Of a DNA stretch of 45,578 bases, positions 3,011 through 40,127 are shown piece after piece (positions within the stretch are counted from its first letter, which is position 1; the number at the start of each line of letters is the position of its first letter). The DNA is from Acidobacteriota bacterium (GTDB lineage Bacteria; Acidobacteriota; Thermoanaerobaculia; Gp7-AA8), in NCBI GenBank assembly GCA_025463165.1, contig JAOBAU010000448.1:1-45578 (forward strand), read 5' to 3'. The notes under the pieces were generated by a model, which saw only the letters and a program-made list of their open reading frames with translations, had not been told where the DNA came from and did not search any database. Both the position numbers and the translations under genes were made by a program.

Positions 3011-5057
3011 TTACTTGACGACCAGCGCCACGCTCGCTTTGCGCGCGTCGCCCGATCCTTTTTCGCGTACGGTCACTTCGAAACTGGAGCTTCCGGTCGC
3101 GAGTCCCTGCGGCGCGAGCTCGAAGACGAGCTTGGTCAGCTCGGCATCACGCGCGCGCACCTGCGATACGACGGACGGCGTGACGACGGCGCCGCCGGCG
3201 TGGGTCTCGAACGTCATCTCTTCCGCATTCGCGTTATAGACGAAGAGCGCGTATTTGCGGCGCTCCCCGTTCTTTACACGCGCCGCGGAGCTCGGCATGA
3301 ACGGCGCGCCGTTGAGCATGAACGGATACGCGGCGCCGCTGCGATCGTGGGACGCGCCGTGCACGAGCAGCCACTCCGACGGTTCGTCGAAGAAGAGCGG
3401 CGGCAACACGGACACGTCATCGGCGTGCGGCACGACGACATCGACGCGCGCGTAGCCCTTGCGATCGCTGTCGATGACGCGAACGAGACTCTTCACCTCG
3501 TAGCGACCTTCCGGAAGACTGAGCGTCGCGTAGTACTTGATTCCGCGGGCGCGAAGCTGCGCGCCGAGTTTGTCGACGTCGAGTGTCAGCCGCTGATAAA
3601 GACGATCGCGCACGAGCCCGTCCTGATCGAACGCGTAGATGAAGACGTCCGCAAGCGCCGTCTTCGCGCGCGCGGAGTCGAGCAACGACGCGCCGTCGAT
3701 CTCGAGCACGACCGGCACCTGCGCCTGCGTTCCCGACGTCGGAAACGCGGCCACCAGCGCATCGACATGAACGTCGGTTTGCGCGATGTCGTTCAGCACG
3801 ATCTCCGCGTTCGTCAGCGATCGTTCGAGCGCGGTCTGCATTCCCGCTTCGTAGTAACCGGCGCGATGAAAAACGTGGGTGCCGCGCGGCGCGTCGAGCA
3901 GCCGCACCTTCAACTCGTGAAACGTCCCCGGCTTTTCCGACGCGGCACGAAACGCGAGAACGTAGACGACTTCCTGCGCGCGCAGCATGCGATTGAGATC
4001 GTCGCCGAGATCGTTGGAATTCTGAAAGACGGCGCCGCCGGTCGGGTTGGCGACGAGGAAGAGCGCTTCGTTCGAGTTGATCTGCGCGCCGTGCGCGAGA
4101 TCGTTGTTCACGCGAACGCCCTTCGTGTCGATGGCGTGCAGCACGACGTCGGCGGCGCGAAACTCATACGCCATTCGCCGAAGCGCGGCCTGTGTGTCGG
4201 ACGTGCCGTATTGCGCGTCGGGATCGGTGCGCCACAACTCGCCGTTGAGAATCTGCTCGAGCTCTTCACGCTGCTCGGCGGTCGAACCGGCTTCACGTCC
4301 GCGCACGAGGCGCGGATCGAAACCGTCGGAGAACATGATGATCTGCTTGCGGCCTGGCAGCGCGCGCAACGTCTTCGCGAGATCGGCCAGCGCGCCGAAC
4401 TGCCGGATGACGCGCGTGCGCATGAACTGATCGTCGAGCCGCTGCTGCTGCTTCATCACTTCCTGAAAAAGAATCGCTCCTTCGTCGACGCGACCCGATG
4501 GCATCTCGCCCGGACGCGACATCGCGGTCACGTCGACGAGCGGCGTGCCGGCGATCTGCAGCGGATCGTTCCCGCGGAAGGATCGCGGATTGGCGATCGC
4601 GGCGTTGAGCAGATTGCGATCGGTCGTGAACGCGGTGAGCGTTCGAAATCCGCGATCGGCATCGACGGTCGCCACGCCGATCAGGTCGCGGCGCCCTGAG
4701 CCACGCACGAGAAAATCGCGCGCGGCGTTTTGTGCTTTCGCGATCGACGTCGGCGAGGTGTACGAGAGATCGAAGAGGAGGAGGAAGTTGCGTCGTGCGA
4801 CCGGATTCAAACGCGACAGCGATTTCACCGACTCGAACGATGCGAAGTCGATCGCGTCGAACGCGGTGATCGACTGCTTTCGACCACTGTCGAGCAGCTC
4901 GAAATTCGCCGCCGTCAGTCCGCGCACCGGCTGTCCGTCGCGATCGACGACCGTGACCGGCACCTCGACGACGTGAACGTTGACGCTCTCCTGCAGTTGC
5001 GCGCGCGCCGCGCCTGCAATCAGCAGCGCGACACACGCAATACGAGCAAGCGGCATC
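3011..5057 (-). CDS. VWFA-related (acidobacterial type) secreted protein, tandem paralog
   Basis: Collinear with the 960..2990 product. Start placed at MPLARIACV (5057) because CAGGAGA lies just upstream; the ORF-track start is 5077. Confidence 0.83.
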
Positions 5058-25301: not shown

Positions 25302-25829
25302 ATGCGCGGGCAGATGTGGATGGCCGGAATAGCGCTGGCGATGGTCGGATGTGCATCGACATCGTCGTCGGTACGCCAGTGCTCGCAGCTCAGCGGACTC
25401 TACGAGCCGTCATCGTGCGTCCAGGAAGAGCCGAAACCACTCACCGATCTGCAGCTTCCCGACGGCACGCCGCTCGCCGGCGTGAAACTTCTCACCGTCG
25501 AACAGAAGTCGTGCAATGAAGTGCGCATCGTCTCGAGCGGCCGCGCCGACATCGTCCTCCGTCCGGACGACGACGATCGCGTGACGTGGGACGACAACGG
25601 CGCGCTCGCCGGCGGCTCGGAACCGAAGAACAGCTTCGTCCCGATCGCCGCCGCCATGCGCTCCTTCCGCGAGTGGCGACTGTCGCGCTCGAACTCCGGC
25701 ACCGGCCTCACCTACAGCGACGCACGCGAAGAGCGCGGCATGGCACTGCTGCTGATCCCGTTTCGCAATCGCATCGCCGCGACGTGTGAGTGGATCCGCG
25801 TCGCCGCAACGTCGCTCATCAAACCTTAG
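25302..25829 (+). CDS. Putative lipoprotein of unknown function
   Basis: MRGQMWMAGIALAMVGCAS lipobox; no recognised domain. Confidence 0.65.
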   Translation: MRGQMWMAGIALAMVGCASTSSSVRQCSQLSGLYEPSSCVQEEPKPLTDLQLPDGTPLAGVKLLTVEQKSCNEVRIVSSGRADIVLRPDDDDRVTWDDNGALAGGSEPKNSFVPIAAAMRSFREWRLSRSNSGTGLTYSDAREERGMALLLIPFRNRIAATCEWIRVAATSLIKP

Positions 25830-27159
25830 GTCGCGATCACGAACTCTGCGCCGCCACCGGCGCGGTTGCGCAACCCGTACGTGAATCCGTGATTGGTCAG
25901 GATCTCCTGGACGATGGTGAGTCCGAGGCCACGGCCTTCGCGCTTCGTGGTGAAGAACGGCGTGAAGAGATCGGGGACGACGTCATCGGCGATGCCGGAA
26001 CCGCTGTCGGCGACGATCAGCGTGCCTTCGCGGAGCGTGATGTCGATCGCACCGTCAGCATCAATCGCATCGATGGCGTTGCGGATGATGTTGACGACGA
26101 CCTGCTCGAACTGATGCTCGTCGGCGTCCGCGATGCTTTCATCGGCATCGACCGCGATCGTGATGCCGCGCGACTCCGCTTCCGGCCGCATCAGCGCGGC
26201 GATCCGCGCCACGACCGCGTCGAGACGGATCGGCGCACGATGCGGCGGCGGAATGCGCACGACGTCGGCGAACGCGCTCATGAAGCGATTCAGCGCATCG
26301 ATCCGCGATGAGGCGATGGTCAATGCGTTGACGAAATCGCTCCGATCGCTTTCACCAACCTGCGGCGCGTAACGCAGCGACGAATCGATCAGCGAGCGGA
26401 CCGCGCCAACGGAGTTGTTCACTTCGTGCGACATCATCCGGATCAGCTTCTCGTACGCCGCTTTCTCCGACAGCCGCAGCTCGTCGGTCATCTCATCGAT
26501 CAGGAAGAACGTCTTCGAAAAGCCGCGATCGCGAAACTCGGCACGCCAGATTTTCATCCGTCGCGGTCCGGCCTGCGTGACGAGCCGCGACTCGCCGGGT
26601 GCGAGCGATCGCAACTCGGTCATCAGCTCCGGCGTCATCAGCGCTTTTGCCGCCGGATTCAGCTCGGCCGCATTTTCGTCGAAGTCGCAGATGACGATGC
26701 CGGACGGCGACGATTCGACGACGCGCGCGAAGAAGTGATGCTGCTCTTCGACCTTCAGCCGCTCTTCACGCAACCGGTCGATCATGCCGTTGTAGACGCG
26801 GATCAGATCGTCCATCTCCGGCTGTCCGACCGGCACGAAGCGCGACGTGAAATCGCGTTCGGCGATCAGTTCCGCACCGGTGCGAATGAGATCGAACGGC
26901 ACGAACAGCGCGATGACGAGCCGATAGCTGACGACGATCGAGAGGATGAAGAGCGCTTCGACGCCGAAGAGCAGCAGCCGGTTCTCCATCAGCACGAAGA
27001 GCGCCGCCGTGGCGATGATGAGATGCAGCGCGACGAAGTAGATGGCGATCTTGCCGCGGAGCGTAAGCGGGCCCGGCCCGCGGCGCTGGTTCGCATAGCG
27101 TCGGCGACCGGCTTCGCGGCGGATCATCGCCGCGTGCTGTGCCGCTTCGACTTCGTCCT

Positions 27160-27163
<4 letters not shown>
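25826..27163 (-). CDS. Sensor histidine kinase (HAMP/PAS type)
   Basis: H-box MSHEVNNSVGAVRSLIDSS, N-box NIIRNAIDAI, VADSGSGI, TKREGRGLGLTIV; GTG start overlaps the RR stop. Confidence 0.92.
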
Positions 27164-28532
<1,369 letters not shown>

Positions 28533-28536
<4 letters not shown>

Positions 28537-29729
28537 TCGTAGCGAAGCGCCTCCGCCGGCTCCACGACCGACGCCAGCCAGCTCGGGTATGCGGCGCAAA
28601 GTAGCGTGATCGCGTAGATCAGAACAAGCGCGGCGACCAATCCGAACGTGAAGATCGGCGGCGAGACGAGCGCGAAGACACCGAGGATCGGCAGCTGCAG
28701 CACGATCACCACCGCCACCACCACGGCCAGCGTCGACAACAACGCCACCTCGGCGAGGACCTGTCTCCTTACATCCGCGCCGCTCGCGCCGAGCGCGCGG
28801 CGCAGGCCGAGCTCGCGCGTCCGCCGCGTGACGTTCTGCCACAAGACGCCGGTCAATCCGAGCGCGACCATCGAGATCAGGAAGAGCGCGACGATGCCGA
28901 GGATGATGATCGGTGAAAGGCGTGACTGAAGCATCATCGTGCGCATCGAATCCATCCGGCGGATCCGGAACGACGCGGTCGGCTCAACGGCGTGCAGCCG
29001 CTTCGTCATCTCCTCTTCGATCTGCGCCGGAGTGCCGGGCTGCAGCCGCACGAGGATGTTGCGCGGCACGCGTCCCTTGACCACAAACGACGTGCGCGCG
29101 AACGCCATGTTCACGCCGGCGGTCGAGATCTCGCCGTTCTTGCGATACGCCGGCACCACGCCGACCACGCGCGAGACGACGTCGCCATCGGTGTCGAATT
29201 TCTGTCCGATCGGATCGCGGTCGCCGTACATCGCCTTCGCCAGATCGGCGTCGATGACCATCGGCTTGAACGTCGCCGCATCATCGTCGGGACGAAACCA
29301 GCGGCCGCGGATGACCTTCATCTGCATCGTGTTCGCGTACGAGTCTGAGACCTCGTCGCGCGTCAGATCGATCTTCTTTCCATCGATGACCCACGTGCCC
29401 GACGACGTCGAGTTGCCGTACGGCGGCGTCATGCCGGTGGCGGCATCGACGACCTGCGGAAAGCTCTTCACTTCGTTGAGCAGCTTCTGCATCGTCGGAC
29501 GGAACTCGCTGTCGTCCTCATTCGGATCGGGCTCGTGTCCGTTCGTGTCGAAGCGAATGACCCAGACGTTCTGCCACGCGAATCCGAGCGGATCGTTCCA
29601 GCGCGAAATGACGGCCGTGACGGCGGTGAGCACGACGAAGATGACGAGGAACGAGAAGAAGATCTCGGCCATCACGAGCGAGTTCGCACGCTTGCGATGC
29701 CAGACCAGTTTCAGCAGATGACGCGTCAT
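28533..29729 (-). CDS. ABC transporter permease (MacB/FtsX type)
   Basis: N-terminal TM, MacB-like periplasmic region (QMKVIRGRWF..), LGLTGVLWQNVTRRTRELGLRRALGA. Confidence 0.9.
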
Positions 29730-30967
29730 TACATACCTCCGCGAAGAGCGTTGACGGGATTGAGGCGCGCCATGCGCCAGGCGGGATAGACGCCGGAGAA
29801 GATGCCGAAGAAGACGGCGATGAGCATGCCGTAGCCGAAGATGCGAAGGTTCAGATCGAAGCGCATGTCGGGAAGCAGGTCGGCGCCGTTCAGCACCTGG
29901 ATGGCGATGGCGGCGAGCACGAATCCGATCACGCCGCCGACGACGGTGATGACGACGTTCTCAAAGATGAACTGCGACATGAGCGCGCGGCGCGGCGCGC
30001 CGAAGGCTTTGCGCACGCCGATCTCCGACGCGCGCTCGAGCGTGCGGCTGAGATTCAGCGTGATGAGATTCAGCGCCGGCAGCGTCATGAACAGCACGCC
30101 GGCGAGCACGAGGATGAGCGCGAGAATGAACGGCGCGCGATCGCGGAACTTCGTGCCGGCGAACATCCCGCGCGCCGACGCTTCGAACGTCGAGTCGAGT
30201 CCCGCCTGCACCTGCGTGAAGGTCTTCGGATCGGGAGACTGCACCCGCCGGATGACGGCGGCGAAATCGCGCTTCAGGCGCGGCAGATCGCCGCGGCTCT
30301 TCGCCATCACGATTGCGTTGAAGTCGCCGACGAACTCGTCGCGATAGGTCGACGAGCGCATCGTGCCGATCGGCGCCCAGATCTCCGCGTATGCGGCGAT
30401 CCGCGTCAGCGCGACCGACGGCACCACGCCGATGATGCGGAAGCGATCGCCTTCGACCTCGATCGTCTTTCCGATCGCGGACGCCCTGCCGAACAGCTTC
30501 GCGCGGAGCTTGTCGCTGATGACCGCGACGTGCGCGCCGGCGTCATCCTCCTGCTGCGTGTACGGGCGTCCTTCGAGAAAGGTGAAGTCGCAGATGCGCC
30601 AGTAGCCGCCGTCGGTGCGCTTGAAGAACGTGTCGATGCGTCCGTCGCCGAGGTAGAGGCGGGTCTGCCGCGCTTCGCTGTAGATTGAGGAGGCTTCGAT
30701 GCCGGGCAGCGGACGAACGTAGCGATTGAGAAAGCCGTAGCCGGGATTCGTCGTCATCGTGGCGGTCGGTCCGACCTGCGCGATGGACAGGACGCAGAGC
30801 ACGCGATCGAAACGGCTTTCGGGCGTGCGCGGCGAGTAGACGTTGTCGAGCACGGCCGTCGCCACCATCAGCACGAGCAGCGTGACGCTGATGCCGAAGA
30901 GCGAGATGAAGGTGAAGAACTTGCGCCGCGCAAGAACCTTCAGGGCGAGTTTGAGTTGCGTTTTCAT
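29729..30967 (-). CDS. ABC transporter permease (MacB/FtsX type)
   Basis: LNLITLNLSRTLERASEIGVRKAFGA...MSQFIFENVVITVVGGVIGFVLA. Confidence 0.9.
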   Translation of the reverse strand: MKTQLKLALKVLARRKFFTFISLFGISVTLLVLMVATAVLDNVYSPRTPESRFDRVLCVLSIAQVGPTATMTTNPGYGFLNRYVRPLPGIEASSIYSEARQTRLYLGDGRIDTFFKRTDGGYWRICDFTFLEGRPYTQQEDDAGAHVAVISDKLRAKLFGRASAIGKTIEVEGDRFRIIGVVPSVALTRIAAYAEIWAPIGTMRSSTYRDEFVGDFNAIVMAKSRGDLPRLKRDFAAVIRRVQSPDPKTFTQVQAGLDSTFEASARGMFAGTKFRDRAPFILALILVLAGVLFMTLPALNLITLNLSRTLERASEIGVRKAFGAPRRALMSQFIFENVVITVVGGVIGFVLAAIAIQVLNGADLLPDMRFDLNLRIFGYGMLIAVFFGIFSGVYPAWRMARLNPVNALRGGM

Positions 30968-31632
30968 CAGGCCACCTGCCGGCCATCAAAGAGCCGCACG
31001 ATCCGGTTCGTCTGCTTCGCGAAACGGTCGTCGTGCGTCACCATCACGATCGTCGTTTTGTCGTCGCGGTTGAGCGTGTGGAGGATCTCCATGATCTCGT
31101 CGCCCATCTGCGAATCGAGGTTGCCGGTCGGCTCATCGGCGAGGAGCACGCGCGGACGTCCGACGATCGCGCGAGCGATTGCGACGCGCTGCTGCTGTCC
31201 GCCGGAAAGCTGCGTCGGGAAGTGATGCACGCGCGACGCGAGTCCGACGCGATCGAGCGCCGCAAGCGCCAGCCGGCGACGTTCCGCCGATCCCATCTTC
31301 CGATACAGCAGCGGAATCTCGACGTTGTCGACGACGGTCAGATCGGGCACGAGGTGGAAGCTCTGAAAGACGAAGCCGAGCTTCTCGTTGCGCACCTTCG
31401 AGAGCTTTTTGTCGCCCGATTTGCCGAGCGCTTCGCCGTCGAGGGCCAGCGTACCGGAGCTCGGCGCGTCGAGCAGTCCGATCAGGTTGAGCAGCGTGCT
31501 TTTGCCGCAGCCCGACGGCCCCATGATCGAGATGAACTCGCCCTGCGTCACGTCGAGATTGATGTTCTGCAGCGCCAGCGTTTCGACGCGTTCGGTCCGG
31601 TACACCTTGTCTACGTTTTCCAGTCTGATCAT
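30967..31632 (-). CDS. ABC transporter ATP-binding protein (LolD/MacB type)
   Basis: Walker A GPSGCGKSTLLN, signature LSGGQQQRVAIARAI, Walker B VLLADEPTGNLD. Confidence 0.96.
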   Translation of the reverse strand: MIRLENVDKVYRTERVETLALQNINLDVTQGEFISIMGPSGCGKSTLLNLIGLLDAPSSGTLALDGEALGKSGDKKLSKVRNEKLGFVFQSFHLVPDLTVVDNVEIPLLYRKMGSAERRRLALAALDRVGLASRVHHFPTQLSGGQQQRVAIARAIVGRPRVLLADEPTGNLDSQMGDEIMEILHTLNRDDKTTIVMVTHDDRFAKQTNRIVRLFDGRQVA

Positions 31633-31639
31633 GCTTTCC

Positions 31640-32884
31640 TCACTCGAGCCGGAGCTTTTTGACGCCCGCGTAATCGGTCATGTTCGAGATGACGACCTCG
31701 TCGCCTTCGCGGAGGCCGCCCGTCACTTCAATCGTTTCTTCGCCCGCCAGTCCCCACTGCGCCGGCACGCGAACGAGCTCGTCGCCGCGGACGACGAAGA
31801 CCTCTTCGCGCTCGCCCTGGCCGAGCGCGCCGCGGCGCACGCGCAGCGCTCCGTTGCGGCGGCCGGTGATGACGAAGACGTCGGCGCGCAGGTTGTTGCG
31901 CAGCTTCGCGTGCGACGGCGCGGCGAGATCGACGTAGAAACGCGCGATGCCGTTCTCGATGCGCGGATCGATTCCCGCGATCGTGCCGTCGACGAGCGTC
32001 GAGTCATCGATCCGCACGCGCGCCGGCATGCCGGCGGAGAGCTTCGCGACGTGTACGTCGGAGATCGTGGCGACGACGCGGAACGACGAGAGATCAGCGA
32101 TGCGCGCCACGACGTCGCCGCGGCGAATCGTCGCGCCGGCATCCTGCACCGCCCACGTCACGACGCCGTCGCGATCGGCGCGCATCATCGCCAGTCCAAC
32201 CTGGCGGTTCGACTCGGCCAGCTCTTTGCGCAGCGTGCGCAGCTCCATCGCCGAGCCGGCGAGCTGCGCTTCGGCGTTTCGTTGCGCACGCGTCAGCGCT
32301 TCACCGAGTTGCGTGAGCTCGATGTCGGTCTTCTTCACCGCGGTCGCCGCGGCGAGATTTTCCTGGGCGGTGATCAGCCCTTCGCGGCTCAGCTTCGCGT
32401 TCTGTTCCGCTTTGAACGCGACGATCTCGCGGTCGAGTTTTTTCTGCTCGAGCTGCGCGCGCAGCGTGGCGATCGTCTCTTCGACGCGCAGCCGCAGCTG
32501 GGCTTCTTCGCTTTCTTTCTGCGCGACGCGATCGGCGAGCCGCTCGGCATCGAGTCGCGTCGCCGAGGTGTCGAGCGCGATCACTTCGTCGCCGGCGCGA
32601 ACGCGATCGCCGGCGCGGCGAACGATGCGAAGCACGCGCGCTTCGACGGGGCTGGAGACGACCTGCTCAGTCGCGGGGACGACGGTGCCGCTCGCCTGCA
32701 GCGACGCGTCAACCGCGCCGCGCTCCACGCGCGCCGTCTGAATGTTGCGGCGCTTCACCGACGGGCGCAGCCACTGCACCGTCGCCGCGAATGAAAACGC
32801 GATCGCCGCAATCGCGACGATCACCGTCGCCGTCCGCCGGATGACGCGCCGTCGCCGAATGTCTGCTGTGATTTCCCGATCCAT
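31640..32884 (-). CDS. HlyD/RND-type periplasmic adaptor
   Basis: N-terminal TM, VERGAVDASLQASGTVVPATEQVVSSPVEARVLRI, coiled-coil hairpin, DGVVTWAVQDAGATIRRGDVVARI. Confidence 0.92.
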   Translation of the reverse strand: MDREITADIRRRRVIRRTATVIVAIAAIAFSFAATVQWLRPSVKRRNIQTARVERGAVDASLQASGTVVPATEQVVSSPVEARVLRIVRRAGDRVRAGDEVIALDTSATRLDAERLADRVAQKESEEAQLRLRVEETIATLRAQLEQKKLDREIVAFKAEQNAKLSREGLITAQENLAAATAVKKTDIELTQLGEALTRAQRNAEAQLAGSAMELRTLRKELAESNRQVGLAMMRADRDGVVTWAVQDAGATIRRGDVVARIADLSSFRVVATISDVHVAKLSAGMPARVRIDDSTLVDGTIAGIDPRIENGIARFYVDLAAPSHAKLRNNLRADVFVITGRRNGALRVRRGALGQGEREEVFVVRGDELVRVPAQWGLAGEETIEVTGGLREGDEVVISNMTDYAGVKKLRLE

Positions 32885-33080: not shown

Positions 33081-34550
33081 ATGACCGCAATCAGCACGTA
33101 CCCTGACGTTCGCAATTACATCGGCGGAGCATTTGTCGACGCCGGCGACCAGAAGCACCTCGACGTTTACTCGCCCATCGACGGCAGCGTGATCTCGCGC
33201 GTTCCGCTCTCCGCCGCCGAAGAAGTCGACCGCGCCGTCGCGGCGGCGAAGAAAGCATTTCCCGCCTGGTCGGCGACGCCGATCAAAGAGCGCGTCCAGG
33301 TTTTCTTCCGCTACAAGACGCTGCTCGAACAGAACATCGATGAGCTGGCGCGACTCGTCACCGCGGAGAACGGAAAGATCGACAGCGAAGCGCGCGCCGA
33401 GGTGTTGAAGTCAGCGGAGCTGACGGAGTTCGCCTGCTCGCTGCCGCAGATCACCGCCGGCGAAGTGCTCGAAGTGAGCCGCGGCGTCGAATGCCGCATC
33501 GAGCGTTATCCGGTCGGCATCGTGGCGTCGATCACGCCGTTCAACTTCCCGAACATGGTTCCGAACTGGACGATCCCGAATGCGCTCGCCCTCGGAAACT
33601 GCATGATCCTCAAACCGTCCGAGCTCGTGCCGCTCAGCGCCGGCCGCATCGCCGAGCTGCTGCGCGAAGCCGGTCTGCCCGACGGCGTGCTGAACATCGT
33701 GCACGGCGGACAGCAGACGGTCGAAGCGATCTGCGATCACCCCGGCATCGAAGCGATCACGTTCGTCGGCTCGACGAAAGTTGCGAAGATCGTCTATCGC
33801 CGCGGCACGCAGAATCTGAAGCGCGTGCTCGCACTCGGCGGCGCGAAGAATCACCTCATCGTGATGCCGGACGCGGAGCCGGAGATGACGTCGTCGAACG
33901 TCGTGGCGTCGATGGCGGGCTGCGCCGGCCAGCGCTGCATGGCAGCATCCGTGATGAAGGCGGTCGGCAAGACCGATCACATCATCGACAAGATGGTGAA
34001 CATCGTTCGCTCGATGGTTCCCGGCAAGCATCTCGGGCCGGTGATCTCGCGCGAAGCGAAAGAAAAGATCGAGGCGTACATCACCGAAGCGGAGCAGCAG
34101 GGCGCGAAGGTGCTCGTCGACGGGCGCGGTTACGTCGTGCCGGGTAAAGAAGAGGGTTACTACGTCGGCCCGACGCTGATCGATCATGTGAAGCCGGAGA
34201 TGCGCATCGCGCAGGAAGAGGTGTTCGGTCCGGTGATGGTGATCATCCGCGCGGACAACGTCGATGAAGCGATTCGCGTGCAGAACAGATCGCCGTACGG
34301 CAACGCGGCGAGCGTCTTCACGGAGAGCGGCGGCATCGCCCGTCACGTGATGGAGAAGGCGAGCGCGGGCATGGTCGGCGTGAACGTCGGCGTTCCGGTG
34401 CCGCGCGAGCCGTTCTCATTCGGCGGCTGGAACGATTCGAAGTTCGGAGCCGGCGACATCACCGGCCGCGGCTCGATCGAGTTCCTGACCAAGCCGAAGA
34501 AGATGACGACGAAGTGGTCGAAAGAAGCCGGCGTCAACTGGATGTCGTAA
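33081..34550 (+). CDS. mmsA: Methylmalonate-semialdehyde dehydrogenase (CoA-acylating)
   Basis: NYIGGAFVDAG, PFNFPNMVPNWTIPNALALGNCMILKPSE, GCAGQRCMAASV, MVGVNVGVPVPREPFSFGGWNDSKFG. Confidence 0.95.
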   Translation: MTAISTYPDVRNYIGGAFVDAGDQKHLDVYSPIDGSVISRVPLSAAEEVDRAVAAAKKAFPAWSATPIKERVQVFFRYKTLLEQNIDELARLVTAENGKIDSEARAEVLKSAELTEFACSLPQITAGEVLEVSRGVECRIERYPVGIVASITPFNFPNMVPNWTIPNALALGNCMILKPSELVPLSAGRIAELLREAGLPDGVLNIVHGGQQTVEAICDHPGIEAITFVGSTKVAKIVYRRGTQNLKRVLALGGAKNHLIVMPDAEPEMTSSNVVASMAGCAGQRCMAASVMKAVGKTDHIIDKMVNIVRSMVPGKHLGPVISREAKEKIEAYITEAEQQGAKVLVDGRGYVVPGKEEGYYVGPTLIDHVKPEMRIAQEEVFGPVMVIIRADNVDEAIRVQNRSPYGNAASVFTESGGIARHVMEKASAGMVGVNVGVPVPREPFSFGGWNDSKFGAGDITGRGSIEFLTKPKKMTTKWSKEAGVNWMS

Positions 34551-34618: not shown

Positions 34619-35242
34619 ATGCGAAAACTGCCTGTCGTACTGCTCCTCTCGCTCGCCGCGTTTCCGCTCGCCGCTCAATCACTCGATCGCGCCGCTCCGC
34701 AGCGGGCGGCGCGAATCGAGCTCATCGCGCAATACGACGCGCTCGCCGCGCTGCCGATGGTCGATCGTATGCGCGATTTGCGCGCGCTGCCGCCGGACGT
34801 GCAGCAGGCGCTCTGGACGAAGCACGTGCAGGTATTTCTGCACGATCATCCGAACCTGACCGCGGAACAGCGTTCTGTCGCGATGGAAGGAATCGGCCTG
34901 CTCGAGACGCGCGTGATCGAAGCCTCATGCTCCGCCGATCCGGAACAGTCAGCGGCCGCGCAGTCAGCACTTCGTCAGCTCAATCAACACGCCACCCTGC
35001 TCCTCGGCACCGAACTGACGAAGGCAGCGTTCTATCGTTTCGGTCCGCCCGAGCTCCCGTCGCCGCAGAACCGTTTCGCCTCAGTGACCGTCGGCTTCGA
35101 TCTGCCGTCTTGTGACTGCGCAACCGACGGCGACTGCAGCGATCCGCTCCTGCACTGCATCTCGCGTCCGCACGACTGCGTCGCGGTCGCGAACTCCTGC
35201 GGTCCATTCAGCGACATCGCCTGCGTCGCGCTCTGCCACTAA
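34619..35242 (+). CDS. Secreted protein with C-terminal eight-Cys module, fulvocin C-related
   Basis: Signal peptide MRKLPVVLLLSLAAFPLAAQS, helical pro-region, C-terminal CDCATDGDCSDPLLHCISRPHDCVAVANSCGPFSDIACVALCH; Cys order and spacing close to fulvocin C as remembered. Confidence 0.75.
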   Translation: MRKLPVVLLLSLAAFPLAAQSLDRAAPQRAARIELIAQYDALAALPMVDRMRDLRALPPDVQQALWTKHVQVFLHDHPNLTAEQRSVAMEGIGLLETRVIEASCSADPEQSAAAQSALRQLNQHATLLLGTELTKAAFYRFGPPELPSPQNRFASVTVGFDLPSCDCATDGDCSDPLLHCISRPHDCVAVANSCGPFSDIACVALCH

Positions 35243-35248
35243 CGTGAA

Positions 35249-35282
35249 TCGGACCGCGGCCGTGATCATGGCCGCGGTCCGA
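35249..35282. terminator. 13-bp perfect hairpin downstream of the fulvocin-like gene
   Basis: TCGGACCGCGGCC / GGCCGCGGTCCGA with an 8-nt loop; no T-tract. Confidence 0.6.
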
Positions 35283-35311
35283 AGAACCGTTAGCGCGACG
35301 TCTTTACCGGG

Positions 35312-35355: not shown

Positions 35356-38300
35356 CTACATCACTACCGCGATGGCGCGATCGAGCTGCGGATCGCGGCC
35401 GGCGATGACATCAGCCGGCGTCTGCTCCACCTCGATATCGGGCGCCACTCCTTCGTTCTCGACCTTCCATCCCTCCTCGGTCCAGAAGCCGAAGTTCGGG
35501 GCGGTGATGTTGCCGCCGTCCATCAGATCGGGGAAGCCGAGGATGCCGACGAGACCGCCCCAGGTGCGGCGGCCGATCAGCGGACCGATGTTGAGCTTGC
35601 GGAACATCCACGGCAGGAGATCGCCGCCGGAGCCGGCGTTCTCATCGATCAGCATCACCTTCGGACCCTGAATCGATGCGAGCGGCGTCTTCATGTCGGC
35701 GCCGTAACGCGTCGCCCAGTTGGCGATGAACGGACGATTGAGAATGTCGATGTAGTAATCGGGGAACGAGCCGCCGCCGTTGTAGCGCTCATCGAGAATG
35801 GCCGCTTCGCGATTCGCCTGCGGGAAGAAGTAGCGGCGGAACGATTCGTAGCCTGCGGTGCTCGTGTTCGGCAGATAGACGTACGCGACGCGGCCGTTCG
35901 TCTTCTCGGTCACGTAGCGGATGTTGTTCTCGATCCACGCGCGGTTGCGGAGGTTCGACTCGTTCTCGATCGGCACGACCTTCACGACGCGCGAGCCGCT
36001 GCCGTCGGCGTTCGGTCCGACCGTGATGTCGACGATGCGGCCGGCGGTACGCTCGAACCGCGCGTAGAGATTGTCGGGATAGCGAAGCTCTTTGCCGTCG
36101 ACGGCGAGCAGATATTCACCTTCGCGAACGTCGACGCCCGGCTCGGTCAGCGGCGCGCGCAGCTCCGGGTTCCAGTTCAAACCGCCGTAGACCTTCGCGA
36201 AGCGATAGCGATTGTTGTCGACCTTGTAGTCGGCGCCGAGCAGCCCGCCGGGAATCGTGTCGACGTTGGCGAGTGACTCGCCGCCGGTCAGATACGAGTG
36301 GCCGACCGACAGCTCGCTCGCCATCGCGCGCATCAGGCGATTGAGATCCTGTCGCACGGAAACGTCGCCGAGCATCGCGGCGTATTTGTCGTGCATCGCC
36401 TTCCAGTCGACGCCGTGCATGGCCGGGTCGTAGAAGTAGTCGCGATTGATGCGCCACGCTTCGTCGAAGATCTGCTTCCACTCGGCGGTCGGCTCGATCT
36501 TCACCGCGATCTGGTCGATCGGCAGCGGACGCTTCGACATGTCGACCTTGTCGCCGAGGTCGGCGATCGACCAGCGATTGCCGGCCTTGACCAGGATGCG
36601 CTTGTTGTCGCGCGAGACTTCGAAGCTGTCGCAGCCGTCGAGCAGCGTCTCTTCTTTCCGCTTCGTCAGATCGAAGCGCATCAGGTTCATGTCGAACTTG
36701 TCGTCGTGGATCTCCGGGCTGGTCGCCTTCAGATAAAGCAGCTGACCGCTCTTCGCCACCGCGAGATCGGAGTAGATCGCCTGCGGCACCGGCAGCGCCT
36801 GAATGCGCTGCGAAAGACGCTCGAAGTCGATGACGACCTTCACGTCCTTTGACTCTTCCTTCTTCTCATCCGACTTCTTCTTGTCATCGGACTTCTCGGC
36901 GGTCTCGTCGGCCTTTTTGGCCGCTTCCTCGTCGCTCTCTTTCGCCAGCGGCGAGACGACACCCTTCGGCAGCACTGCCATGTAGATCGCGCTCGTCGCG
37001 CGGAGATCAGTGTTCGAAAGCGCGAACCAGTCTTCGACCGGACCGGCGTTCGTCGACGCGAGGAAGTAGAGGTACTTGCCGTTCGGATCGAAGACCGGCG
37101 ACATCGCGTCGCTGTAGCCGTCGGTCACCGGCGACGAGCTCTTCGTCGCCACCGACCAGACGTGAACGGTGTGGAAGAAGTTCTGCGAGTTGCTCGTGTA
37201 TGCGAGCAACTTCGAATCGGGCGACCAGTTGTGATCGAGGTCGCGGAACGGACCGTACATCGTATTCTGCGAGATCTTCGTCGACGTTCCCGACGCAACG
37301 TCGAGCACGTAAACGGAGCGGGAGTTGTCGAGATAGCTGATCAGTTTTCCGTCCGGCGACCACTTCGGATTCTCGTAAAAGCCGGCGCCATTCAGTTTGA
37401 TTTTGCGAACGTCGCCGCGTCCATCCTGCGGCGCGATGCGCAGCTCGTATTCGCCGGTTTCATCGGTGAACCACGCGATCGATTTGCCGTCCGGCGACCA
37501 GATCGGCGAGCGGTCGTTCGCGCCGGGCGACTGCGTCAGATTGCGGTCGTCGCCTTTCTCCGCCGGCAGCGTGAGGATCTCGCCGCGATACTCGAGGACG
37601 GCGCGCTGTCCGGCCGGCGACAGCGATGCGCCGCGGATGTACTTCGCTCCCTTCACGAAGCGCGGACGCGTTTCGATGAGGTCGGCGGCGACGCCGATCT
37701 TCAGGCGCGTGTCGCGTGCGGCGGCCGGCTCGTAAAGATGAAGGTAGCCGGCCTGTTCGAAGATCAGCTTTCCGGCTCCGCCATTCACGGACGTCACCGG
37801 GAAGTCCGAGTACTTCGTCAACTGCCTGACTTCTTTGCTGCCGCGATCGAATGAGTAGAGATTGAACTCGCCATTGCGATCGGAGCGGAAGTAGAGCGTG
37901 TCGCCGATGAAGATCGGATCGGTGTCGTTGCTGCGCGTGGCCGGCTGCGGGACCTGTTCGACGGCGTTCGTGGCGACGTCGAAGAGGAAGATGCGCGCGG
38001 TCGCGCCGCCGCGATAGCGCTTCCACTGCGCGAACGCTTCGCGCAGCGGGACGAACGCGATCGTTTTTCCATCCGGCGAATACGCGGCGGTCGACGCGTT
38101 CGGAATCGGGAGCTTGGTGACCGCGCCGCCACCGACCGGTACCGTGAAGAGCTGCTGGTAGCGACGCGTGTAGACCTCGCGCGGCGAGGTGAAGAGAATC
38201 GACTTGCCGTCGGGCGTGAAGCCGAGGACGGCGTCGGTATCGGGATGCCACGTCAGACGCTTCGGCACACCGCCGGCGGCGGGCATCACATAGACGTCGA

Positions 38301-38565
38301 CGTTCCCTTCGTACGAACCGCTGAACGCGAGCAGCGATCCGTCGGGCGAATAGCGCGGCAGCGTTTCGACGCCGGGATGCGACGTCAATCGCCGCACGCC
38401 GGAACCGTCGAGGTTCGCGGCCCAGAGGTCATTCGCATATCCGAACGCGATGCCGTTCGCGCCGACGGTCGGCGTCGTGAGCAGCCGCGTGTCGGTGGTG
38501 TTGACGGCGAGAAGCGGAAGTGCGGCGGCGAGCAGGAAGAGCAGGCAGAGGCGTGCCGATTTCAT
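35356..38565 (-). CDS. Tricorn protease-like S41 peptidase with beta-propeller repeats
   Basis: Repeated PRYSPDGSLLAFSG / PKWSPDGKLISYLDN; KSDDKKKSDEKKEESK linker; C-terminal VMLIDENAGSGGDLLPWMFRKLNIGPLIGRRTWGG. Start at MKSARLCLLFLL. Confidence 0.93.
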   Translation of the reverse strand: MKSARLCLLFLLAAALPLLAVNTTDTRLLTTPTVGANGIAFGYANDLWAANLDGSGVRRLTSHPGVETLPRYSPDGSLLAFSGSYEGNVDVYVMPAAGGVPKRLTWHPDTDAVLGFTPDGKSILFTSPREVYTRRYQQLFTVPVGGGAVTKLPIPNASTAAYSPDGKTIAFVPLREAFAQWKRYRGGATARIFLFDVATNAVEQVPQPATRSNDTDPIFIGDTLYFRSDRNGEFNLYSFDRGSKEVRQLTKYSDFPVTSVNGGAGKLIFEQAGYLHLYEPAAARDTRLKIGVAADLIETRPRFVKGAKYIRGASLSPAGQRAVLEYRGEILTLPAEKGDDRNLTQSPGANDRSPIWSPDGKSIAWFTDETGEYELRIAPQDGRGDVRKIKLNGAGFYENPKWSPDGKLISYLDNSRSVYVLDVASGTSTKISQNTMYGPFRDLDHNWSPDSKLLAYTSNSQNFFHTVHVWSVATKSSSPVTDGYSDAMSPVFDPNGKYLYFLASTNAGPVEDWFALSNTDLRATSAIYMAVLPKGVVSPLAKESDEEAAKKADETAEKSDDKKKSDEKKEESKDVKVVIDFERLSQRIQALPVPQAIYSDLAVAKSGQLLYLKATSPEIHDDKFDMNLMRFDLTKRKEETLLDGCDSFEVSRDNKRILVKAGNRWSIADLGDKVDMSKRPLPIDQIAVKIEPTAEWKQIFDEAWRINRDYFYDPAMHGVDWKAMHDKYAAMLGDVSVRQDLNRLMRAMASELSVGHSYLTGGESLANVDTIPGGLLGADYKVDNNRYRFAKVYGGLNWNPELRAPLTEPGVDVREGEYLLAVDGKELRYPDNLYARFERTAGRIVDITVGPNADGSGSRVVKVVPIENESNLRNRAWIENNIRYVTEKTNGRVAYVYLPNTSTAGYESFRRYFFPQANREAAILDERYNGGGSFPDYYIDILNRPFIANWATRYGADMKTPLASIQGPKVMLIDENAGSGGDLLPWMFRKLNIGPLIGRRTWGGLVGILGFPDLMDGGNITAPNFGFWTEEGWKVENEGVAPDIEVEQTPADVIAGRDPQLDRAIAVVM

Positions 38566-38645
38566 GCGCGGGAGTGTAACTCCGGCACCGCGATGCGTCA
38601 GCGTTCCGTCATCAATGCGACACAGGATTGTGATCGCTGCCGTCG

Positions 38646-40127
38646 TCAGTCGCGCGGCTTCGCGATCTTCATCAACGCGTAATAGACAACGAGCGCCACG
38701 CCGAACCCGACGAACCACGCGTAGTCGTACAGCCCTTTCATCGACGGCACGAATCTCCCGATCCACGCGAAGAAGCAGGCGATCAGCGTCGCGACGACCG
38801 CGCGCCAGTTCCATCCCTTCGCATACCGATACTCGCCGGTTTCGCGATAGAGATCGGGCAGCGCGAGGTTCTTGTCGCGGATCAGCCAGTAATCGGCGAT
38901 GAGCACGCCGGCAATCGATCCGAGACCGCCGGAGTAGGCGACCAGCCAGTCGAAGATGTAGCCCGATGGATCGGCGATCAGCCGCCAGGGCTGCATGATG
39001 ATGCCGAGGATGCCGGTGATCAGGCCGCCGGTCCGGAACGAGATCCATTTCGGGAAGGCGTTCGCGAAATCGTTCGCGGGCGAGACCACATTCGCGGCGA
39101 TGTTCACCGACAGCGTCGCGACCACGATCGTGAACATCGAGATCGCGATCACCCACACCTGCGTGAAGTGGCCGACGAGCACGATCGGATCCCACAGCTC
39201 GCTCATTTTGGACTGCGGATAGATGACGACGGCGGCGGACGTGATGATCACCCCCATCGCGGCGAAGAGCGTCATCGTCGACGGCAGCGCGACCGACTGT
39301 CCGATGACCTGCTCGCGCTGGCTGCGGCCGAAGCGGGTGAAGTCGGGCATGTTCAGCGACAGCGTCGCCCAGAAACCGATCATGCCGGTCAGCGACGGAA
39401 TGAAGACCGGCCTGAACTCTGCCCACGTCCGGAGCTTGCCGGGATGATCGATGAGATATCCGAGTCCGCCGGCGCGCCAGACCGCCCACGCGAGGAGCAG
39501 CGCGGTCATGACGAGCACGAATGGCGCGGCCCAGTTCTCGACGCGGCGCAGCAGATCCATGCCGCGATAGATGATGTAGATGTTCATCCCCCAGAAGAGC
39601 ATGAAGGAGAACCATTGCGTCGTCGGGTGACCGCCGAATGAACCGAGGAGGTTCGTCCAGCCGGGGACGATCGCGCCGAAAAGTGTTTGCAGCGCCTGGC
39701 CGCCGATCCACGCCTGAATACCGAACCAGCCGCAGGCGACGATCGCGCGCATCAGCGCGGGAAGATTCGAACCGTACGTGCCGTAGGCAGCACGCGCGAA
39801 GACGGGAAACGGGATCCCGTACTTCGTGCCGGGATGCGAGTTGAGCAGGATCGGGATGAGCACGATGATGTTGCCGAGGAGGATGGTGAGGAGCGCCTGC
39901 CACCAGTTCATGCCCGAGCTGATGAGAGCCGACGACATCATGTTCGTCGGGATGCAGTGCGCCCTCGAGATCCAGAGCGCGGCGTAGTTGTAGGTCGTCC
40001 AGTCGCGCTTCGCCACCGGCACCGGCGCGAGGTCTTCGCTGTAGAGCGGGCTCGATTCGATCGAGGTGTGGTCGCGCAACTCGACGCGGCCATCGTCGTG
40101 CTGGATCACTTCTGCTGTGTTCGGCAT
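38646..40127 (-). CDS. NCS1-family transporter (cytosine/uracil/hydantoin/allantoin type)
   Basis: KRDWTTYNYAALWISRAHCIPTNMMSSALISSGMNWWQALLTILLGN, LNSHPGTKYGIPFPVFARAAYGTYG. Confidence 0.94.
   Translation of the reverse strand: MPNTAEVIQHDDGRVELRDHTSIESSPLYSEDLAPVPVAKRDWTTYNYAALWISRAHCIPTNMMSSALISSGMNWWQALLTILLGNIIVLIPILLNSHPGTKYGIPFPVFARAAYGTYGSNLPALMRAIVACGWFGIQAWIGGQALQTLFGAIVPGWTNLLGSFGGHPTTQWFSFMLFWGMNIYIIYRGMDLLRRVENWAAPFVLVMTALLLAWAVWRAGGLGYLIDHPGKLRTWAEFRPVFIPSLTGMIGFWATLSLNMPDFTRFGRSQREQVIGQSVALPSTMTLFAAMGVIITSAAVVIYPQSKMSELWDPIVLVGHFTQVWVIAISMFTIVVATLSVNIAANVVSPANDFANAFPKWISFRTGGLITGILGIIMQPWRLIADPSGYIFDWLVAYSGGLGSIAGVLIADYWLIRDKNLALPDLYRETGEYRYAKGWNWRAVVATLIACFFAWIGRFVPSMKGLYDYAWFVGFGVALVVYYALMKIAKPRD

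Follow-up and report, generated by a model that had tools for sequence, protein, structure and literature searches.

The window analysed here, a stretch of 45,578 nucleotides of acidobacterial DNA, carries a gene that on profile comparison is a full-length, divergent member of the annotated family NF033852 ("bacteriocin fulvocin C-related protein"). With a probability of roughly 0.6 it encodes the preproprotein of a fulvocin C-type peptide, which would be exported by Sec, cleaved and secreted as a disulfide-rich antibacterial peptide.

Family membership and precursor layout

In the HMM search proposed in the initial annotation the protein scored 53.8 bits against NF033852, where the curated cut-off is 35, and the match covered nearly the full profile (Table 1). 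Like the family it consists of a pro-region and an eight-Cys module. The pro-region alone (residues 1–162) also matched NF033852 (E 1.9e-6, 28.8 bits, under the 35-bit whole-protein cut-off as can be expected for a part), as well as a family profile made in this analysis without the window protein (1.5e-9), and the family link is therefore independent of any counting of Cys residues. The module alone gave weak scores (0.25 and 0.35), owing to its divergence outside the Cys residues. Taken by itself the window gene is an ordinary, somewhat divergent example of the family. Pfam held no matching family for the window protein, and over 78 members no Pfam family was common to more than one of them, nor was NVEALA among the matches. 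"Bacteriocin fulvocin C-related" is already in use as an annotation term (PMC12333140). The same term is also found on Streptomyces plasmids.

The secreted precursor layout that had been proposed, with an N-terminal signal followed by a helical pro-region, agrees with what was found. The N-terminus is hydrophobic and, judged by eye, typical of a Sec signal, and in a model built on an alignment of 78 sequences (mean pLDDT 82, pTM 0.74) the pro-region, from about residue 20 to 162, is predicted to be helical, with confidence over about residues 31–150, where pLDDT is mostly above 90. The module was modelled with short strands and less certainly (pLDDT 63–77). Compared with the PDB by fold, the model had no match at E ≤ 0.001 (best 0.73), and a sequence search of the PDB gave nothing convincing.

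The exact spacing of the module is CxC-x5-C-x6-C-x6-C-x6-CG-x6-C-x3-C, with CDC starting at 35111, i.e., at residue 165. The initial annotation was right about the position of CDC, the eight Cys and the CG, while its "CG-x7-C" was one residue too long if the Gly is counted separately. In all six frames of the window this pattern was found a single time, and in 40 mononucleotide shuffles not at all. In an alignment of 78 homologues from several phyla, with only 11–26% overall identity to the window protein, none of the eight Cys varies, nor does the Gly following the sixth, and the pattern is thus far beyond chance. Conservation of the module among homologues, on which the original proposal had been made to depend, therefore holds, and as the pattern scan described below demands a motif, the alignment also took in members from motif-free profile searches. 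In 77 members whose spacing could be parsed, CG-x6-C was found in 77 and the terminal C-x3-C in 76. The window protein departs from the family at several other positions. Column 193, just before the sixth Cys, is Gly in 76 of 81 sequences but Ser here; column 204, between the last two Cys, is Gly in 78 of 81 but Ala here; the usual Trp and Tyr of the GCGxxWxY stretch are missing; and the pro-region has an extra Cys (C104). The motif GCGxxWxYxCxGxC, which is common and not defining, is accordingly absent from the window protein, which reads SCGPFSDIACVALC, and membership of NF033852 stands, as other members deviate too.

Table 1. Coordinates of the precursor gene, its parts and its surroundings in the window
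Feature	Position	Strand	Details and basis
Fulvocin C-related precursor gene	34619..35242	+	207 aa; NF033852, E 3.7e-14, 53.8 bits, profile positions 5–149 of 150
Putative Sec-type signal peptide MRKLPVVLLLSLAAFPLAA	34619..34675	+	cleavage at about residue 19–21, by eye
Helical pro-region, residues 20–162, conserved Trp W66	34676..35104	+	alignment, predicted model
Predicted mature peptide PSCDC...ALCH, residues 163–207, 45 aa	35105..35239	+	homology with fulvocin C N-terminus
Eight-Cys module: C165, C167, C173, C180, C187, C194 (G195), C202, C206	35111..35239	+	invariant in 78 sequences
Hairpin, 15-bp perfect stem and 6-bp outer stem	35239..35293	.	-38 kcal/mol, z -6.6
Aldehyde dehydrogenase, methylmalonate-semialdehyde type	33081..34550	+	judged from sequence
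Tricorn-like protease, beta-propeller/PDZ/S41	35356..38650	-	judged from sequence; start within long ORF approximate
HlyD/MacA-like protein, ABC ATPase, two MacB-like permeases, NtrC-type response regulator and further ORF, in a row	25829–32884	-	judged from sequence

The precursor gene lies 68 bp downstream of the aldehyde dehydrogenase gene, on the same strand, and is convergent with the tricorn-like protease gene. Between the convergent genes, beginning at the stop codon of the precursor gene, is a terminator-like hairpin, at which no T-run terminator was found. The base composition of the gene fits its surroundings, GC3 being 0.76 over the gene, 0.86 over the module and 0.85 in the adjacent aldehyde dehydrogenase. 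The direct neighbours include neither an immunity gene nor a dedicated protease, an exporter or a thiol-disulfide partner; for immunity and export this had been noted before. A MacAB-type operon lies about 1.7 kb upstream, past the aldehyde dehydrogenase; it was considered as an exporter (28.5–32.9 kb) and dropped, as there was no family-wide association and no sign of a link. The further ORF in this row perhaps encodes a histidine kinase.

Fulvocin C and the precursor boundary

Fulvocin C of Myxococcus fulvus is a bacteriocin that kills other bacteria. The peptide has been known since 1981 and is 45 aa long, and we know of no activity for any family member except fulvocin C itself. It is a free peptide, and its primary structure has been determined (Tsai and Hirsch, 1981, as cited in PMC8708641). 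Only a few ribosomal peptides of myxobacteria are known, and the fulvocins are named as one group of them (PMC8708641). In the literature searched, mostly without subscription journals, it seems to have been hardly studied since. Fulvocin C shares with the window module the eight Cys in the same order, the CxC start, the CG and the 45-aa length predicted here. Outside the Cys there is little identity, and the resemblance is not clearly significant beyond Cys placement, as 11% of non-Cys shuffles reach the score against the fulvocin C sequence quoted in the initial annotation and 4% that against its myxobacterial homologue.

The 45-aa fulvocin C sequence quoted in the initial annotation served as query. 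It matched NF033852 (1.1e-6) at positions 108–148, the C-terminal end of the profile. A myxobacterial precursor (L132/L154) consists of a signal, a pro-region and a 45-aa end, ANCSCSTASDYCVPLTFCTLGTSCTYTAWGCGTNWVYACNGDCLY, which starts with ANCSC as fulvocin C does and is closely identical to the quoted peptide. Furthermore, a fulvocin C gene broken by a frameshift, its pro-region degraded, is present in Myxococcus sp. CA023 (L049, about 4862–5000, minus strand); its two frames read ANCICSTASDYCPILTFCTTGTACSY and TPTGCGTGWVYACNGDCLY, and over CSTASDYCPILTFCTTGTACSY it is identical to the quoted peptide. These readable genomic copies verify the quoted sequence, and the resemblance to fulvocin C first suggested for the window module is real. 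As the myxobacterial precursor ends in a 45-aa near-copy, fulvocin C is the C-terminal part of an NF033852-type precursor; judged from these genes, such precursors end in a fulvocin C-like peptide of 45 residues, cut off two residues before CxC. The same boundary applied to the window protein gives a predicted mature peptide of residues 163–207, and release from a proprotein, as originally suggested, would follow by homology. The layout of the fulvocin C precursor and its likely cleavage point are hereby fixed. A neutral-ceramidase-like gene is located directly downstream in three myxobacterial fulvocin-type loci (L154, L157, and L049).

At the C-terminus the genomic copies read YACNGDCLY and the quoted fulvocin C YCACNGNFY, so that the quoted peptide ends CG-x5-C-x1-C in contrast to CG-x6-C-x3-C in the window protein, in the family and in the myxobacterial genomic copies. 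The exact fulvocin C C-terminus, searched as a DNA pattern, had no match in the genome collection. From the genomic YACNGDCLY and the family-wide CG-x6-C and C-x3-C it appears that an error at this point is probable in the published C-terminal order or in the version quoted, and a correction of the sequence is suggested.

Thiol-disulfide partners and module exchange

In about 30 loci the gene immediately downstream of the family member, on the same strand and mostly within 150 bp, codes for a membrane protein that has a thioredoxin (ResA/TlpA-like) domain. When the downstream neighbours were scanned, AhpC-TSA was found in 21 of 67, Thioredoxin_8 in 20 of 67, and the ResA model matched 22 of 67, the one case shown being below the model's own cut-off; DUF1573 proteins also recur near members. 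The thiol-disulfide proteins adjoin the members in Bacteroidota and some Acidobacteriota and are fused to them in actinobacteria. The pro-region and module of the actinobacterial and Ktedonosporobacter members are as in the window protein, but are preceded by an oxidoreductase-like DxxCxxC domain and then a Tat-like signal, both of which the window protein lacks. The DxxCxxC domain is weakly DCC1-like (7 of 19 members, best E 0.012) and its fusion to the member was seen at 26 of 31 actinobacterial loci; among the other five L019 has a variant motif, in L024 and L026 the remaining part lies at the locus edge, L044 is masked and L054 is cut off. Most members from actinobacteria and Bacteroidota have a thioredoxin-fold partner, either fused to them or adjacent, as expected of a disulfide-rich product. 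No such partner was found beside the 12 myxobacterial loci, the 4 Gemmatimonadota loci and 8 of the 11 Acidobacteriota loci, including that of the window. General disulfide formation is plausible in the organism, as its genome has two matches to PF13462 (DsbA-like); no VKOR was found in it. ABC transporter ATPases near members (7 loci) were not above background by a rough estimate, and the one in L148 resembles LolD.

A plasmid of Streptomyces sp. NBC_00012 carries two members in tandem (L018, 4178–5218 and 5527–6513), the DNA of which is essentially identical over about 800 bp covering the oxidoreductase domain, the signal and the pro-region, while beyond a break a few codons ahead of CxC the modules are only about 50% identical. 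On two further plasmids (L167 and L168), with 99.9% identity to that of NBC_00012, a single gene at this site combines the precursor part of copy 1 and its upstream flank with the module of copy 2 and its downstream flank. On comparison of these plasmids the single gene is the expected outcome of recombination between the identical precursor parts, by either loss or gain of a cassette. In two other tandem pairs the precursors were 72–75% and the modules 44–53% conserved. Among most orthologues, on the other hand, the module is conserved as well as, or better than, the pro-region, so that the pattern reflects exchange or divergence among paralogues and not a general fast change. Exchange of modules behind unchanged precursors supports a toxin-like, disulfide-rich cassette peptide. 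Conotoxin-type prepropeptides have a conserved prepro part and a cassette-like Cys-rich mature part that diversifies; their likeness to the window protein is one of analogy and not of homology.

The family is now tied to thiol-disulfide enzymes, and module exchange is seen between near-identical plasmids; as far as shown by the literature searched, again mostly without subscription journals, neither has been described before. It is tempting to speculate, though the idea stays somewhat short of even odds, that the fulvocin C family forms a system of cassette peptides reaching across phyla, in which a conserved precursor for export and folding, often with its own fused or adjoining thiol-disulfide enzyme, carries exchangeable eight-Cys killing modules. 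The window gene would then be a reduced member of this system, the module of which has diverged and may have a new target.

Mechanism, alternative explanations and distribution

If the window gene follows the route that we favour, the precursor would be exported by Sec, and the helical pro-domain would keep the C-terminal module quiet and aid its folding. In the periplasm the eight Cys would be oxidised, probably to four disulfides, by general oxidoreductases, a protease would cut about two residues before CxC (at 162/163) to give a compact peptide of about 45 aa, and the released peptide would leave the cell and act against other bacteria like fulvocin C. It can now be tested whether the many proteins so annotated are antibacterial peptides that are secreted.

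The orphan position of the window gene, the missing Gly and Trp residues and the degenerate second copy described below leave room for two other explanations. It is conceivable, with about a third of the likelihood given to secretion, that the module is never released and stays, stapled by disulfides, as the C-terminal domain of a protein in the periplasm or at the surface, structural or redox in function, fulvocin C being a special case. Lipoprotein-type signals, recognised by eye in Bacteroidota members, would suit such a domain, as would a thioredoxin-like partner serving in a redox relay and the few members with two pro-domains in tandem; yet fulvocin C is a free peptide according to the source cited above, its homologue starts exactly at the module boundary, and paralogues retain the pro-region while swapping the module. 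Slightly less likely still is a decaying copy, descended from an active member and drifting in this lineage. Such drift is suggested by the loss of G193, G204 and the usual Trp, by the lack of a partner gene, by a second copy in the genome that has lost part of its module and by the scarcity of the gene in the same taxonomic family, but the frame is open, all eight Cys are intact, the pro-region is recognisable and GC3 is normal for the region.

That the product is a pheromone-like secreted signal and not a killing peptide seems improbable. Some signals are small peptides of variable sequence that are secreted and processed, but next to family members no receptor or kinase family turns up repeatedly, and fulvocin C has been described as a bacteriocin. 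A Cys cluster that binds metal in place of forming disulfides is very improbable: eight Cys may bind metal clusters, but the protein is presumably exported, thiol-disulfide partners occur across the family, and to our knowledge the invariant CG-x6-C-x3-C spacing matches no known metal site.

A pattern scan for GCGxxWx(Y/F)xCxGxC with one genome per species gave 98 stretches, about 70 of them true members, from Actinomycetota, Bacteroidota, Acidobacteriota, Myxococcota, Gemmatimonadota, Chloroflexota, and Pseudomonadota. Members are rare and unevenly scattered, which speaks for the reading favoured above: they occur in 9 of 396 genomes in the phylum of the window, 14 of 195 in that of myxobacterium G421, and 3 of 248 and 2 of 247 in samples of Bacteroidota and Actinomycetota, one match in each of these samples being the query genome itself. 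Among 17 genomes of the taxonomic family to which the window belongs, only one other has the gene, and phage records and viral contigs contained no relatives. In the second family copy in the window's genome (G000:C47:6398-6934, L153) the Cys module is cut short and the signal peptide lies in a different frame; this copy is either degenerate or an assembly error. In some Acidobacteriota members, namely that of L150 (336 aa), L005/L149 and L113, the pro-domain is repeated in tandem before one Cys module, and proteins with the pro-domain and without the Cys module also occur (L011, L012, and the upstream ORF of L068).
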